From the NCBI GenBank assembly GCA_937929945.1, contig CALFUK010000049.1:1-64000 (forward strand): DNA of 64,000 nt, read 5' to 3'. The stretch comes from an uncultured Saprospiraceae bacterium (lineage in GTDB: Bacteria; Bacteroidota; Bacteroidia; Chitinophagales; Saprospiraceae). A program made the translations under genes and the position numbers. Below the pieces are notes generated by a model. That model was not told the DNA's origin. It made no database searches and saw only the letters and a list, made by a program, of their open reading frames with translations. Positions within the stretch are counted from its first letter, which is position 1. Every line of letters begins with the position of its first letter. Positions 42,947-49,792 of the stretch are shown in pieces.

Positions 42947-43483
42947 TTGGAAAAACTTGACTATCAACGAGATTTGATCGAGCTGTGTAAAGCTGGGGAC
43001 AGAGATGCCCAGTTTAGACTGTACAGGAAGTATTCTGATGCTATGTATAACATATGCCTGAGGATGCTGAAGCATGAGATGGATGCTGAGGATGTGCTGC
43101 AGATGTCATTTGTGAAGATATTCAAAAGTCTAAATCAATACGAGTACAAGTCGACACCAGGTGCGTGGATCAAGCGGATCATTGTGAACAATTGCATTGA
43201 TCATTTAAAAAAACGCAAAATGTACTTTGAAGAGATCACAGATCGGATAGAGATAGTGGAAGACATCAATGAAGAGCCTGACTACAATGTGGATATTGTC
43301 AAAGAGGCTGTCAAAGAGCTTGCGGATGGGTACCGGGCTGTTTTCACCATGTACGCTTTTGAGGGCTATGATCATAATGAGATAGCAGAAATCTTAGGCA
43401 CCTCTCAGGCTAATAGTAAGTCTCAATACAGCCGAGCAAAGCAACATGTCAAGAGAATCATAGCTGAAAAATACAATCGATAA
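42947..43483 (+). CDS. ECF-type RNA polymerase sigma factor
   Basis: 178-residue sigma-70 family factor with only regions 2 and 4. Region 2 includes MYNICLRMLKHEMDAEDVLQMSFVKIFKSL and the DNA-melting part YKSTPGAWIKRIIVNNCIDHLKKRK; region 4 is LADGYRAVFTMYAFEGYDHNEIAEILGTSQANSKSQYSRAKQ. It starts with TTG at 42947, forced because in-frame ATGs occur only within region 2. It is divergent from the propionate operon and is followed by a membrane protein and a DUF4097 protein, a layout usual for cell-envelope sigma factors with their regulators and targets. Confidence 0.94.
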   Translation: MEKLDYQRDLIELCKAGDRDAQFRLYRKYSDAMYNICLRMLKHEMDAEDVLQMSFVKIFKSLNQYEYKSTPGAWIKRIIVNNCIDHLKKRKMYFEEITDRIEIVEDINEEPDYNVDIVKEAVKELADGYRAVFTMYAFEGYDHNEIAEILGTSQANSKSQYSRAKQHVKRIIAEKYNR

Positions 43484-43492
43484 TAAAGTAAA

Positions 43493-44032
43493 ATGCAGAA
43501 AGATAAATTAGAGGCATACATAGAATCTAAGCAAAGGGAGTTTAATAATGAGAAGGCACCTGCATTAGTGTGGACGGCGATCGAGAAGGAGCTGGATAAG
43601 AAGCCAGAGAAGCCAGTCTTCAGACTCGGGTTTTTCCTCTCTATTGCGGCAGCCGCGGCAGTCCTGATCTGTGCAGGCGTGGCCATGGGTATACAGTATG
43701 CGAAGCCTTCCTTAGAGAGTAAGCTATTAGCCACACACCCGGATTATCTCGAAGCAGAGAAGCACTACCAGCAGATGGTCAATTATAAAATAGATAAGGT
43801 CCAAGCATTGGGCCAGCAAGAGATCGTGCAGCAGGACTTGAAGCAGCTGGATGCAGTCTACCAAGAACTTAAAAGCGAGCTATTATCAGAAGGCGTCGGC
43901 GACGAAGAGATGATCGTCGAAGCGATGATAGAGCACTATAAATCAAAACTCGAATTACTATCTATCGTATTAGATAAATTACAAAGTCAGGACAAATTAA
44001 ACCTCAATCAAGATGAGAAAGTCAATATGTAA
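43493..44032 (+). CDS. single-pass membrane protein, candidate anti-sigma factor
   Basis: 179 residues: an acidic/basic cytoplasmic N-terminus (1-45), one transmembrane helix (about 48-68, FFLSIAAAAAVLICAGVAMGIQ), and a helical periplasmic part (about 70-165) with coiled-coil character. It lacks the zinc-finger HxxxCxxC motif of ZAS anti-sigma factors. Position between an ECF sigma gene (9 bases upstream) and an exported protein (20-base overlap downstream) makes it a candidate regulator of the sigma factor. The family is not recognised, and the function is inference from context. Confidence 0.75.
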   Translation: MQKDKLEAYIESKQREFNNEKAPALVWTAIEKELDKKPEKPVFRLGFFLSIAAAAAVLICAGVAMGIQYAKPSLESKLLATHPDYLEAEKHYQQMVNYKIDKVQALGQQEIVQQDLKQLDAVYQELKSELLSEGVGDEEMIVEAMIEHYKSKLELLSIVLDKLQSQDKLNLNQDEKVNM

Positions 44033-45128
44033 ATTCCTCATTCTGCTGGTCGGACTTGTGCCAATGAGCACGCTCCAATCCAGAGAGTACCAAAAGGAAA
44101 TCAATAAAGAATTCAGCATCAGCAGCGATGCCATCATCGATATAGAATCCAGACATGGTAATATCAATTTTGTCTTGGGTGATCAAGATAAGGTCAGCTT
44201 TGATATTCTGATCACGGTGGATGCCAGCAGTGAAAAGAAAGCTCAGGCCATCCTGGATGGGATAACTGTGGATTTTGATGCATCGACCAGAAGAGTATCA
44301 GCTACGACTGAGCTGGATGTCGATTCAGGTGGGAGCTCATGGAAAGGTTGGTTCGGCGGAAACTGGAATAATGACATCAGCTTTGATATAGACTATACCG
44401 TCACCCTGCCTGCGACAGCTCAGATTGTGATTGATCACGCCTTTGGTGATGTAATTATACCGAGTATGGATAGTGATTTAGACATAGACATCAAGCACGG
44501 TAATGGCAGAATAGGTGATATCACTGGCAATGCTGACATCGAGCTAAAGCATGGTAAAATCGATATGGGTGACGCCGCGGATCTTGATTTGGAGTTTCAT
44601 CATTCGTCACTGACCGTGGATCGGGCTCAAATGGTGGAGGTGGATATGTCACACTCAGACTTCGAGCTGAAAGAAGCTGTAGAAGTAGATATCGAATCCC
44701 GACACAGCGACATCACCATCGGCACTGTCCAACGACTCACGAATGATGGAAAATTTGATGATTTTGATATTGAGTGGGTTTCAGTGGTGGAGCTTGACGG
44801 AGGCTTTAGTGATATCAACATTGATTGGCTGGATAAAGAGGGCAGCTTCTACCTACAGCACGGAGAATTAGAAATAGAAGATGTAGCTAAGCAGGCTGCA
44901 TCGATTGATATCGACAGTCAGCATACCGGAGTGATGCTGGACCTGCAGCACGGCTTCAGCTTTGATTTTGACGGAGAGCACGTGAAGCCTAAATTTAGAA
45001 ATAAGCCTGACTACACTCATGTGGATGATGAGTCACACAGCTATGAGTACAGAGGGAGCTATGGGTCTGATCCTGTATTGAAATTGCTGGTGGAGATGCA
45101 GCATGGGTCATTTAGGGTGGGGAATTAG
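44013..45128 (+). CDS. secreted DUF4097-like beta-repeat protein with histidine ladder
   Basis: 371 residues. The signal peptide is about residues 1-23 (MRKSICKFLILLVGLVPMST). The rest is a beta-strand repeat of the DUF4097 adhesin/auto-transporter-like type, normally written as short strands ending in a Gly-Asp turn. Here successive turns carry histidine: His142, 162, 180, 197, 214 and 231, spaced 17-20 residues, then 283, 304, 313 and 364, in motifs such as KHG, HHS, SHSD, RHSD, LQHG. Asp is also very frequent. It overlaps the candidate anti-sigma gene by 20 bases, so it is made with it. It is probably a periplasmic or surface solenoid; metal binding is possible. Confidence 0.85.
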   Translation: MRKSICKFLILLVGLVPMSTLQSREYQKEINKEFSISSDAIIDIESRHGNINFVLGDQDKVSFDILITVDASSEKKAQAILDGITVDFDASTRRVSATTELDVDSGGSSWKGWFGGNWNNDISFDIDYTVTLPATAQIVIDHAFGDVIIPSMDSDLDIDIKHGNGRIGDITGNADIELKHGKIDMGDAADLDLEFHHSSLTVDRAQMVEVDMSHSDFELKEAVEVDIESRHSDITIGTVQRLTNDGKFDDFDIEWVSVVELDGGFSDINIDWLDKEGSFYLQHGELEIEDVAKQAASIDIDSQHTGVMLDLQHGFSFDFDGEHVKPKFRNKPDYTHVDDESHSYEYRGSYGSDPVLKLLVEMQHGSFRVGN

Positions 45129-45409: not shown

Positions 45410-48193
45410 TTATGACTGAGTAGTCATCTGGTCTGTTTGTTTGATACTAACTAAACTAAATATCATCAGTATGATTCCTAAGCATATCAGACCCCATTCT
45501 CCCATAGTAGGTATCAGCTTCGGCGACCCACAGAATCCAAAGTTATCAATTCCAATGCCCCAAGCCCAATCATTATTATCATCATAGGTGAGTGTCACAC
45601 TAATGTTAGATAAATCTAAACTTAATGGGATCAACTCATTAAATGTTCCTTCCTCATCTTCAGTCAGCCAGATTGATGGTGCGTCTACCCAATCGGATCC
45701 GTCAAAATAATAAGTCTGAACACCATCTGTAATGGATAAAATAGCATCTCCTGATCCAGCAAAATCTTGGAAAGTAAAATCAAATTTTAGAATTATATTT
45801 TCTAATCCCTGTATGTCATAGGATGGAGTCGTCGCTGTCGCAACATTATTTTCACCATTTGGTCCCGCTGCATCATCATTATAATAAAGCCAATTCCCTT
45901 CTCCTGGATTTGTAAAAGCAATATCTCCAAAAAGTGTGATGCCAATCCCTGAATCATCATTTGTCCACGTAGGACCAGAAGCTCCAGTTACATTAGTGGA
46001 CCAGCCTGGAGGTATTCCAGATTCGAAATCTTCAAGTACTACACATGTTGGACAAATATCTAGTAAGTTAGCTCCACCACCAGTACACTGAAAAGTAGGC
46101 GCGCCATTATCAATTGCTATTTCTGGTCCACCACAATCGTCAGCATTGGTAATTAGGATTGCAATGGAACCACTTACTGTTGAGATGAACGTAATCGAAC
46201 AACCTGGTGTAGTCTCTATTAAATTTGAATTCAAATCAGTGACTGTGATGTTAGCTGACCACACGCTTGGATCGTAACCGGTACAAAACTCAAAGGTATA
46301 TTCAGCTCCCGCAGTAATACCATCTATTACATATACTTCATTAGCCCAAACTTCAAAATTTACGGTCAATGGTGTCTGACATTCTGGGAAACAATCAACT
46401 TCATTAAAATCAAAATAGGGTCCACCCATGAACTCAAAACAGGGTGATTTGTCTCCGGTCGTGTAAGGTCTTCCACTTGACCAAGGACCGACGCCGCATA
46501 AGCTGACTCCTCTTACTCTCCAATAATATGTAGTTGTGGCTGATAAGGAGTTGGCAGTATAGCTTGGTTCTTCTAAGCCACTATTCATTTCAACAATTGT
46601 AGTGAAATTCGGGTCTGTTGCGATTTGGATGTCATATCCAGTTGCATTAGAGGTAGCCAACCACTCAAATAGAGTGGATACAAAAGCGTCAGTGGCTCCA
46701 ATAGTCGGTACGGTCAAGGTAGGAGTGGCTGAAACAGTACCCTCGATGACAAGGCTCATTGGTATTTCTTGTTGAGGATTGACTCCGTCGGCAGCATTGA
46801 TTGTGAATGGATAAGTTCCGGGTGCTGTAGTGCTTAGATTTGTGAGAGTCAGTGTCTGAGGTCCAGATGAATTGACAACATCATTAGAAAAAGTAGGAGT
46901 AATGTTAGCCGGAAGACCGGACACAGACAGAGTTGCATCTCCAGAAGCACCACCCACATAAGTGACAGAAAAATTTGCTATTGCATCAGATGAAAAACAA
47001 ACCGTGAGTTCAGGTTCATCGGTTACCAGAACAATACCATCGGTGGTGCCTATGGGTGACTGAGATAAAGAAGCTCTTCTTGGAGAACCTGCATTGCCGC
47101 ATCCCATCACAATTCTCATACGATCCGTCTGACACGTTGTGAATATATTCATACAGGCATCATCACTATAGTCCATGTAATTTTCTACTTGATCATTTCC
47201 AGGATCTGCAGGGCATGTATCCTTTATTGGACATCCAGATGTGGAGCTTCCAGCATTTGGTGTGTCACTGCAAAAATCATCAGCGCTACAATCACCATCA
47301 CCCCATATGTGCCTTAATCCAAAGAAGTGTCCTGCTTCATGGGTCCAAGTTCGTCCTGCATTGAATGGTGCAGCACCTGGAAATGGGACATTTATACTGC
47401 CTACTGAACTAAAAAGTACGACTATTCCATCCGTGGACTCCATTCCGTTTCCTGTCCCAATACCAGCTAAACTTGGTGCTTCTGGAAACTGAGCATAACC
47501 TAATAGACCGCCAGTTAATTCTACAGTCCATGTATTAAAATACAAATCTGGGTTCCAAATTGTGGGTGCTTTAAGATCATCTTCGACAACGCCATCTGAA
47601 TATGGGCCAAAGCCAACCATTCCAGAGACATCTACTCGGTTTATGCCTGGTTCAGTCATGATATTCCCTTGAGGGTCGACTGTAGCAGGAATAAACTGGA
47701 TCCTGGTATCTACTCCAGCTCCATCACCACTTGTTCCAGCTATTTTTCTAAAATCAATATTTGCTTGTTTGATCTGTTCTTCGACAAATATTGCATCAAT
47801 ATTCTCACCAGTACCAATGGGGTCTCCGTCGTGCAATATGTGGAATACGACAGGTACAGTTAGAACATCTGTAGCAGATGCGCATGTGCCAGATGAACTC
47901 TTAATAAATGCTTCAAACCTGTTTCTCATATCGTCCATACGATCTTCAAACATTCTTTCTTGCATTTGAACAGTGGCACATCTAACTATTCCATTTTCAT
48001 CCCTATGGTCTTTATGTTTGTCATATTGAAATTGCTCTGCGGTCAGTCTCTTGCTGCGATCTATATCTTCTTGTTCTATTTCTTTTTGTCCATAGGACGA
48101 AGAAAGGAAGAAAATAAAGATGAATAAAAAGATAAATGAAGTAATAGGAGGTCTAGTATGAGACCAGCAGGTAAACTGATAAAATTTGTGCAT
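45410..48193 (-). CDS. secreted M43-type (pappalysin-like) metalloprotease with IPTL-CTERM-like tail
   Basis: 927 residues. A long signal peptide (about 1-35, hydrophobic core TSFIFLFIFIFFL) is followed by a propeptide-like stretch and the metzincin domain (about 110-365): zinc site HEAGHFFGLRH at 285-295 and the Met-turn region NYMDYSDDACMNIF. Then come a beta region near 400-490, a fibronectin III-like domain (about 500-580, TTYYWRVRGVSLCGVGPWSSG), a Cys-rich segment, and a MAM/jelly-roll-like domain (about 735-890, FESGIPPGWSTNVTG). The last 34 residues are a motif-helix-charged tail. It is extracellular or surface-bound, and a protein-degrading role is likely. It lacks a type IX secretion CTD. 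Confidence 0.92.
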   Translation of the reverse strand: MHKFYQFTCWSHTRPPITSFIFLFIFIFFLSSSYGQKEIEQEDIDRSKRLTAEQFQYDKHKDHRDENGIVRCATVQMQERMFEDRMDDMRNRFEAFIKSSSGTCASATDVLTVPVVFHILHDGDPIGTGENIDAIFVEEQIKQANIDFRKIAGTSGDGAGVDTRIQFIPATVDPQGNIMTEPGINRVDVSGMVGFGPYSDGVVEDDLKAPTIWNPDLYFNTWTVELTGGLLGYAQFPEAPSLAGIGTGNGMESTDGIVVLFSSVGSINVPFPGAAPFNAGRTWTHEAGHFFGLRHIWGDGDCSADDFCSDTPNAGSSTSGCPIKDTCPADPGNDQVENYMDYSDDACMNIFTTCQTDRMRIVMGCGNAGSPRRASLSQSPIGTTDGIVLVTDEPELTVCFSSDAIANFSVTYVGGASGDATLSVSGLPANITPTFSNDVVNSSGPQTLTLTNLSTTAPGTYPFTINAADGVNPQQEIPMSLVIEGTVSATPTLTVPTIGATDAFVSTLFEWLATSNATGYDIQIATDPNFTTIVEMNSGLEEPSYTANSLSATTTYYWRVRGVSLCGVGPWSSGRPYTTGDKSPCFEFMGGPYFDFNEVDCFPECQTPLTVNFEVWANEVYVIDGITAGAEYTFEFCTGYDPSVWSANITVTDLNSNLIETTPGCSITFISTVSGSIAILITNADDCGGPEIAIDNGAPTFQCTGGGANLLDICPTCVVLEDFESGIPPGWSTNVTGASGPTWTNDDSGIGITLFGDIAFTNPGEGNWLYYNDDAAGPNGENNVATATTPSYDIQGLENIILKFDFTFQDFAGSGDAILSITDGVQTYYFDGSDWVDAPSIWLTEDEEGTFNELIPLSLDLSNISVTLTYDDNNDWAWGIGIDNFGFCGSPKLIPTMGEWGLICLGIILMIFSLVSIKQTDQMTTQS
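45413..45514 (-). other. IPTL-CTERM-like C-terminal sorting signal
   Basis: Encodes the last 34 residues of the M43 protease: the motif IPTMGEWG, a hydrophobic helix (about 16 residues) and a short tail with Lys and polar residues. The order motif, helix, charged tail is that of protein-sorting signals such as IPTL-CTERM. Confidence 0.8.
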
Positions 48194-48370: not shown

Positions 48371-49792
48371 ATGAAAATCAAATTCTGCGGAGCAGCAAGA
48401 GAAGTCACAGGTAGCGCACACCTCATCACATTAGATGACGGATTTCAGATCCTGCTGGACTGTGGCCTGTGCCAAGGCGGTAAAGATACCTGGGAGAAGA
48501 ATAATCAGTGGTATTTTAAACCAGAAGAGGTGGACTGTCTGGTCCTATCACATGCCCACATCGATCACTGTGGCCGGATACCTAAGGTGGTAAAAGACGG
48601 ATTCAAAGGACCGATCTATTCGACGCATGCGACCCGGAGTCTCTGTGCGATCATGCTGCTGGATAGTGCTAAGATCCAAGAGCGGGATGTAGAATACTAC
48701 AACCAGAAGATCATCAAGAAAAAGAAGAAGAAAAATAAATCCAAGAAGTATACGCTGAGAGAGCCGCTCTATGAGAGCACCATCATACCCGAGGTGATGT
48801 CTAGATACATTGGGCATAACTATGACATCTGGTTCAACATACACAAGGATGTACAGGTGTGTTACAAAGATTCTGGTCATATCCTTGGTAGTGCTTCGGT
48901 GACCTTGAAGATCACGGAGGGAGATAAGGTCACGACCATCGGCTTCACGGGCGACATCGGCAGAGAGGACAGGCCCATACTCAGAGACCCGCAGCTGATG
49001 CCAAAAGCTGACTACTTGATCTGTGAATCTACCTATGGTGATAAGGAGCACGAACTACCGCCGCAGCAAAGTGATAAGTTTCTCGAAGTGCTGCATCAGA
49101 CCTGTGTCGAGAATCAGGGTAAGCTGATCATACCTGCATTTAGCGTGGGCAGAACGCAGGAGATCGTCTACATGATGGATCAGCTGTACAATGCGGGCAA
49201 GCTACCCAAGATACCCGTATACGTAGATAGCCCACTGGCGGTGAATGCCACGCAGGTATTCGGTGCGCATCCAGAATGCTATGACGAAAATCTAAGTGAA
49301 TACCTGCTGGTGGATAAGGATCCCTTTGGTTTTAACTCCTTGACCTATATCAGGTCAGTGGACGAATCCAAGGCTCTGAATCACTCTAATAAGCCAGCGG
49401 TCATCATTAGTGCTTCTGGTATGATGAATGCTGGCCGCATCAGGCACCACATGTACAACGGATTAGAGAATGAGAAAAACACCTTCCTTATCGTAGGATA
49501 CTGCGCGCCTAATACGGCTGGCGGAATTCTCAGAGCTGGCGTGAAAGAGCTCAAGATGTTTGGCGAGATACTCCAGGTGAAGGCCAACATTGAAATCATG
49601 GAGTCATTCTCTGCACATGCCGATCGGCTGGAGATGCTGAATTTCATCAAAAATCATCGCTTAGGATTGAAAAAACTTTTCTTGGTACATGGCGATTATG
49701 ACACGCAGCAGAAGTTTAAGCCCTATCTGCATGATGCAGGATTTGAGGATGTGGAGATACCTGCTATGGGACAAGAATACCAGATAAGCTGA
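48371..49792 (+). CDS. beta-CASP metallo-beta-lactamase-fold RNase-like hydrolase
   Basis: 473 residues. The metallo-beta-lactamase motif HAHIDHCGR (His61, His63, Asp65, His66) is followed by GHILGSASV, the FTGDIGRED metal strand, and beta-CASP elements (ESTYGD, AFSVGRTQEIVYMM, SASGMMNAGRI...HH), ending with the zinc-dependent RNA-specificity domain containing SFSAHADR and LVHGD. This is the CPSF/YSH1-like family, usually RNA endonucleases or exonucleases. A Lys-rich loop (about residues 115-127) is inserted before the second half and could bind RNA. It is cytoplasmic and forms a single-gene unit. Confidence 0.92.
   Translation: MKIKFCGAAREVTGSAHLITLDDGFQILLDCGLCQGGKDTWEKNNQWYFKPEEVDCLVLSHAHIDHCGRIPKVVKDGFKGPIYSTHATRSLCAIMLLDSAKIQERDVEYYNQKIIKKKKKKNKSKKYTLREPLYESTIIPEVMSRYIGHNYDIWFNIHKDVQVCYKDSGHILGSASVTLKITEGDKVTTIGFTGDIGREDRPILRDPQLMPKADYLICESTYGDKEHELPPQQSDKFLEVLHQTCVENQGKLIIPAFSVGRTQEIVYMMDQLYNAGKLPKIPVYVDSPLAVNATQVFGAHPECYDENLSEYLLVDKDPFGFNSLTYIRSVDESKALNHSNKPAVIISASGMMNAGRIRHHMYNGLENEKNTFLIVGYCAPNTAGGILRAGVKELKMFGEILQVKANIEIMESFSAHADRLEMLNFIKNHRLGLKKLFLVHGDYDTQQKFKPYLHDAGFEDVEIPAMGQEYQIS

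Follow-up and report, generated by a model that had tools for sequence, protein, structure and literature searches.

A protein of 371 amino acids encoded in the genome of an uncultured Saprospiraceae bacterium raises the question of why histidine residues should recur at nearly regular intervals along a single polypeptide chain. The protein was noticed in a window of 64,000 nucleotides (GenBank assembly GCA_937929945.1, contig CALFUK010000049.1, positions 1 to 64,000), to which all coordinates given here refer. A preliminary description based on the letters alone took it for a secreted DUF4097-type protein whose stacked histidines, together with acidic neighbours, could bind metal or sense pH at the cell envelope. 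The open reading frame (44013-45128, + strand), its coordinates and the histidine spacings listed at that stage were all found to be correct in the ORF list and the translation, and the acidity of the protein was equally evident (72 Asp and Glu residues against 31 Lys and Arg).

The gene is the third of an operon. The first gene (42947..43483, + strand; listed with a TTG start, the true start being uncertain) encodes an ECF-type sigma-70 factor, which was matched by the Pfam models Sigma70_r2 (4.5e-15) and Sigma70_r4_2 (1e-13) and by the NCBIfam model TIGR02937 (4e-26). It is followed by the gene for a protein of 179 amino acids (43493..44032, + strand) with a single transmembrane segment, seen as a hydrophobic stretch in the called ORF, for which searches of Pfam and NCBIfam gave no match above cut-off. 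A sigma gene adjoining a membrane-protein gene is the arrangement of an ECF sigma operon, and position and topology make the second product a candidate membrane anchor or anti-sigma factor. The third gene (44013..45128, + strand) overlaps the second by 20 nt. Its first residues, read by eye from the translation, have the look of a signal peptide (about residues 1-23, 44013..44081, + strand; AF2 pLDDT below 50 at residues 1-20), and the protein is probably secreted. No PspC, LiaI-LiaF-TM or PspA was found among the ORFs listed beside this gene. Further downstream, an ORF at 45410-48193 (- strand) encodes a metalloprotease of the M43 type, which has an fn3 domain and whose C-terminal tail bears a weak resemblance, below cut-off, to IPTL-CTERM, and an ORF at 48371-49792 (+ strand) encodes a beta-CASP protein of the metallo-beta-lactamase fold. 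The best NCBIfam score of the latter was obtained with the type VII CRISPR Cas14 model (395.6 against a cut-off of 800), which is so far below the cut-off that the product is more likely an ordinary RNase relative.

The fold had to be assigned by structure prediction. At E<=1 the window protein matched no family in Pfam or NCBIfam, DUF4097 (PF13349) included, and PF13349 was matched by one of 30 aligned family members (1.5e-8). Against the sequences of solved structures the protein itself retrieved no chain, and a 30-row profile retrieved one chain only, a designed protein (E 0.25). The AF2 model calculated from 35 aligned sequences is a beta-solenoid with a mean pLDDT of 88.1 and a pTM of 0.83; a relative discussed below, which carries tyrosines instead of histidines, gave comparable values (pLDDT 89.8, pTM 0.84). 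In comparison with solved structures, the model matched a set of Bacteroidota proteins annotated as 'putative adhesins' (3lyc, 3jx8, 3ljy, 4opw, 3pet and 4ygu) with Z scores of 12.3-17.7, at 9-17% identity or less. These are of the Toastrack type, a class that unifies Pfam DUF4097, DUF2154 and DUF2807, according to the available part of its description (PMC11237479), which names PDB 4QRK and 4OPW and predicts a right-handed beta-helix. Both named structures matched the predicted model (4QRK, Z 12.4 over 155 aligned residues; 4OPW, Z 16.6 over 215). As the adhesin matches cover about residues 24-272 of the model, the C-terminal coils of the window protein are extra. Foldseek TM-scores were low (TMq 0.20-0.37 at ranks 1-16). 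Other beta-helix chains, including lyases, tailspikes and autotransporters, scored Z 7-14, and the highest score of all belonged to a chain of the Legionella Dot/Icm complex (7muc_AM, Z 18.4); these matches are taken as shared architecture. Overconfidence of AF2 for solenoids with perfect repeats has been reported in the accessible part of one study (PMC11795689), a caveat that stands for the predicted ladder proteins even though their repeats are imperfect and solved folds match. The name DUF4097 is thus supported by the predicted fold, while the protein itself lacks a profile match. Model, alignment and spacing agree with the initial proposal of a DUF4097/DUF2807 (Toastrack)-type beta-solenoid with a repeating residue placed once per coil at a constant position.

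Relatives were collected to determine which residues belong to the repeat. Within the GTDB family to which the bacterium belongs, 298 genomes were searched and 214 contained matches, and an order-level search gave a match in 51 of 198 genomes, 26 of the 51 lying within the family. A total of 149 loci was assembled (30 given, 80 hand-picked, 38 from named records, and L149), from which four partial sequences (L062, L065, L066 and L067) and 16 with at least 95% identity were dropped, leaving 129. The window protein was the query by which most relatives were found, and they represent the better-scoring part of the family. Their alignment defines a ladder of 13 rungs. In the window protein (all on the + strand) these are His48 in the N-terminal region (CAT, 44154..44156), Phe144 (TTT, 44442..44444), His162 (CAC, 44496..44498), His180 (CAT, 44550..44552), His197 (CAT, 44601..44603), His214 (CAC, 44652..44654), His231 (CAC, 44703..44705), Phe248 (TTT, 44754..44756; His in the two other members of the genus), Phe265 (TTT, 44805..44807; Phe in all three members of the genus), His283 (CAC, 44859..44861), His304 (CAT, 44922..44924), His323 (CAC, 44979..44981) and, as the last rung, His364 (CAT, 45102..45104). 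Ten of the 15 histidines of the protein fall on the 13 sites that the relatives mark with Tyr (hypergeometric P = 7e-14), so the histidine repeat is not a product of chance. The register given in the preliminary description needed amendment at its beginning, since its first rung, His142, precedes the true one, Phe144, by two residues. Its list also lacked His48 and His323, and its later LQHG, DSQH and MQHG copies do correspond to rungs His283, His304 and His364. The histidine run is broken at Phe248 and Phe265.

The ladder is a family trait in which Tyr is the usual residue. Among the 1677 rung cells (13 rungs in 129 relatives), 1262 hold Tyr, 289 His, 73 Phe, 31 Asn and 22 other residues, so that Tyr, His or Phe fill 96.8% of the cells; Leu occurs twice and Ala once. 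All 13 rungs are Tyr in 48 of the 129 relatives, 63 lack His on the ladder entirely and four carry His on all 13 rungs. An alignment of homologues had been suggested as a check on the histidine ladder, and it reveals that the histidines are not randomly replaced but that Tyr, and in some cases Phe, stands in their place. When L149 is set aside, 14 of the remaining 128 proteins have at least ten His rungs, ten have four to nine and 41 have one to three, and the existence of such mixed ladders indicates that the residues are not always exchanged en bloc. A histidine ladder found in a single genome does not have to imply metal; it is the relatives that reveal both the conserved site and its usual residue.

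The direction of the rung side chain was judged from the way in which core and polar positions alternate. Rungs 2-10 are spaced by 17-18 residues, and spacings of 19-22 and about 41 occur towards the C terminus. Among the residues that follow the rung, Gly, Ser, Asp and Thr predominate. Core positions -6, -4 and -2 are in register with the rung, and positions -5, -3 and -1 are polar; at position -2 the frequency of charged residues is 0.00 to two decimals (1176 Tyr cells). Sharing its phase with core positions, the ring probably lies at a corner, facing inwards or along the edge. In the window model the strand is interrupted, according to DSSP, at rungs 214 (214-215), 231 (231-232), 248 (248-249) and 265. 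Strands continue through several rungs in the model of the Tyr-ladder relative, and a corner break at the rungs is therefore not a general mark of the ladder. The position directly before the rung behaves as a further column and varies along with the ladder, Lys or Arg being common there with Tyr and rarer with His or Phe.

A maximum-likelihood tree (a quick tree with a midpoint root) was built without the ladder columns from 128 sequences, the 129 without L149; ten order-level loci were left out. On this tree the His ladders fall into three separate clades, namely the genus of the window (three of three genomes), a group of seven with His on 12 of 13 rungs and a group of four with His on all 13. 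The starred branches force three changes, a count that under the midpoint root does not by itself separate gain from loss. Parsimony assigned 10, 12 and 13 gains of His to the three single stem branches, compared with the 0.3-0.6 gains per stem predicted by the background rate, a rough figure; the parsimony and Poisson estimates ignore rate differences between branches. Rung pairs gaining His on one and the same branch numbered 237, against 39.6 +/- 7.1 (maximum 75) in 5000 simulations that distributed gains over the whole tree in proportion to branch length. Inside the His clades no change from His to another residue was counted where about 4.5 were expected (P about 0.01, likewise rough). 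Adjacent rungs changed together 6 times, with 7.4 expected (p 0.81), and this lack of a neighbour excess gives no support to a stepwise spreading along the stack. As read from the aligned sequences, the ladder was exchanged nearly as a block on three separate branches, and the column is therefore likely to function as a single face.

The operon was followed through the same relatives by comparing their neighbouring genes with the sigma factor and the transmembrane protein of the window. Among the 124 relatives with enough upstream DNA, a sigma homologue is found upstream in 120 and a homologue of the transmembrane protein in 119. The order sigma, transmembrane protein, solenoid is kept in 119 of the 123 loci of the main family for which the upstream sequence reaches at least 1300 nt. 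The four loci without the sigma and transmembrane genes are exactly the four all-13-His proteins (L075, L088, L102 and L136); these are stand-alone copies whose sigma and transmembrane genes were lost or never present.

A sister subfamily, here called B (L149 and L158-L186), consists of proteins of about 450 amino acids found in 39 of the 298 genomes at E<=1e-12. In the three loci whose surroundings were viewed (L194, L196 and L197), it has an ECF sigma gene of its own upstream. In this subfamily Lys-Tyr rungs alternate with Tyr-Asp rungs, and the Lys-Tyr ladder is all Tyr on eight rungs in 24 of 30 sequences. In L149, which comes from the genus of the window (G050:C48), the Lys-Tyr ladder consists of seven His and one Asn, and L159 has His on all four Lys-Tyr rungs covered; an AU test does not reject the two as one clade (p 0.48), and their His change may have been one event. 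The Tyr-Asp ladder consists entirely of Phe in L158 and L162 and largely of Phe in L160, L169, L166 and L159; in L173 five of its six rungs are His. Each of the two ladders of subfamily B thus changes separately from the other. Two proteins of the main family, L121 (from genome G082) and L122 (from G172), have the ladder FHFHFHFHFHFFH, in which Phe and His alternate over ten rungs, and the idea of interleaved ladders would explain this alternation.

The register, the restriction to Tyr, His and Phe, the operon and the near-block exchange are established at the level of sequence comparison, and the explanation that best accommodates them is, with a probability of roughly 0.6 for the combined statement, a Toastrack-type solenoid in which a stacked column of rings is selected as a unit and which serves as an arm of a sigma circuit. 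The protein would probably be a secreted right-handed beta-solenoid in which most coils put a single flat-ringed residue at an equivalent corner, and the rings could then stack as a column along the solenoid. In the genus of the window His has replaced Tyr on nearly the whole column. The column would be selected as one unit, since it may be structural spine and extended docking face at once. The docking face would meet another solenoid, an envelope polymer of repeating structure or the membrane partner, and the solenoid would form the extracytoplasmic arm of the sigma-factor circuit. A more specific version can be proposed only tentatively: the block-exchanged column would be a recognition face that reads a repeating ligand or partner solenoid and senses for the ECF sigma factor, the His version being pH- or metal-responsive. 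The exchanges would then be those from Tyr to His and from Tyr to Phe, and subfamily B would carry two separately changing faces.

Alternatively, the ladder could be a zipper for self-assembly that pairs two solenoids lengthwise, as has been suggested for the Tyr ladder of ice nucleation proteins, an exchange of the ladder changing the partner. The exchange of whole ladders would fit such pairing, and the interleaved ladders and the Phe/His alternation would suit an interdigitating partner. Three of the genomes with stand-alone all-13-His proteins (G014, G244 and G023) each possess an operon copy with a mostly-Tyr ladder besides the separate all-His copy, and Tyr-ladder dimers have been modelled for ice nucleation proteins in the available portion of PMC10727499. 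On the other hand, a rung in phase with the core would hide much of the ring, and the idea overlaps with the column selected as a unit; as a separate explanation we regard it as unlikely.

As the function of the family, the originally proposed array that binds metal or responds to pH at the envelope can be rejected, since most relatives have Tyr at these positions (1262 of the 1677 cells) and the acidic neighbours differ among the His clades. The latter had been suggested as companions of the column. Asp or Glu at position -3, however, has a frequency of 0.93 in the genus of the window, 0.70 in the second His clade and 0.23 in the all-His clade, compared with 0.38 in Tyr types, and is thus not a common trait of His ladders; the mean net charge of the three clades is -47, -22 and -3, against -9 in Tyr types. 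The array could still be restricted to the genus of the window, with the Tyr relatives doing otherwise. His is kept without reversal inside the three His clades, Lys or Arg at position -1 is rarer in them (0.24, 0.23 and 0.15 against 0.59 in Tyr types), which could mean partly charged histidines, and in the viral LRR protein Crov588 a polyoxotungstate cluster is bound by the His patches of a His/Tyr ladder, according to the accessible part of PMC9525666. Basic residues are, however, also rare before Phe rungs (0.14 to 0.32), so that the drop is no proof of a charged His and charge repulsion is not needed to account for it. Together with the common Tyr rung, the variable acidic neighbours, the core phase of the rung and two Phe rungs that are fixed in all three members of the genus (rung 8 being excepted), this makes the restricted array quite improbable.

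Neutral drift, under which Tyr and His would be equivalent at these sites and chance or mutation bias would account for the three His clades, is already disfavoured and has a low probability. The codons of Tyr and His are one transition apart (TAY to CAY) and mixed ladders do exist, but gains clustered on single branches to an extent beyond any of the 5000 simulations (237 pairs against at most 75). Base composition was considered as the cause and rejected. The GC content of His genes (0.405) resembles that of the others (0.415), and outside the ladder His makes up 0.30, 1.59 and 2.04% of residues in the His clades against 1.31%, and Tyr 2.0-2.4% against 2.6%; without a matching shift elsewhere in the protein, the change is confined to the ladder. 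In the three genomes that contain both kinds of ladder, neither habitat nor genome composition can be the cause. Least probable is a homogenisation of repeats, by which recombination between coils of the repetitive solenoid would have spread a His coil through the gene, and it is disfavoured by the coils of the 14 His proteins being no more alike in nucleotide identity outside the rung than those of the other 114 (0.393 against 0.382).

Should selection act on the column as a whole, the family provides a set of natural replicates, comprising the three His clades, the Phe and mixed ladders and the genomes with both kinds, for examining how such columns of stacked residues are put together and act, and would offer a handle on Toastrack-type proteins. 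A search of the literature, largely outside subscription journals, yielded no published description of this ladder for the family and none of such a ladder being exchanged as a block. The 2026 'Knotted Solenoid' paper (PMC13123833) was considered as a precedent and set aside, as its Brevundimonas proteins are nearest to pentapeptide repeats and DUF4097, Tyr and His do not appear in the part of its main text available. The fold and a Tyr/His ladder in solenoids are both already known. With Toastrack proteins the window protein has in common the fold matches to 4QRK and 4OPW and the sigma-factor neighbourhood. In the parts of PMC11237479 at hand, Toastrack neighbourhoods with sigma factors are reported and the beta-sheets are proposed as protein-docking surfaces. 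Toastrack is argued there to be intracellular, whereas the window protein begins, as judged by eye, like a signal peptide, and the residue ladder of the window protein has no counterpart mentioned in that text. Ice nucleation proteins resemble the window family in having one stacked Tyr per beta-solenoid coil, thought to form one face, as described in the accessible text of PMC10727499. They are built of 16-residue coils with water-organising TxT motifs (PMC9418140 and PMC10727499, as far as available), in contrast to the imperfect repeats and 17-18-residue coils of the window family, in which a TxT motif was not noticed, the combination of 16-residue repeats with TxT is not found and homology to ice nucleation proteins was not found. 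In Crov588, as in the window family, a repeat position preferring His or Tyr forms a ladder; there, according to the same portion of PMC9525666, the solenoid is of the LRR type, the ladder lies on its concave surface, and His and Tyr are mixed in one protein.
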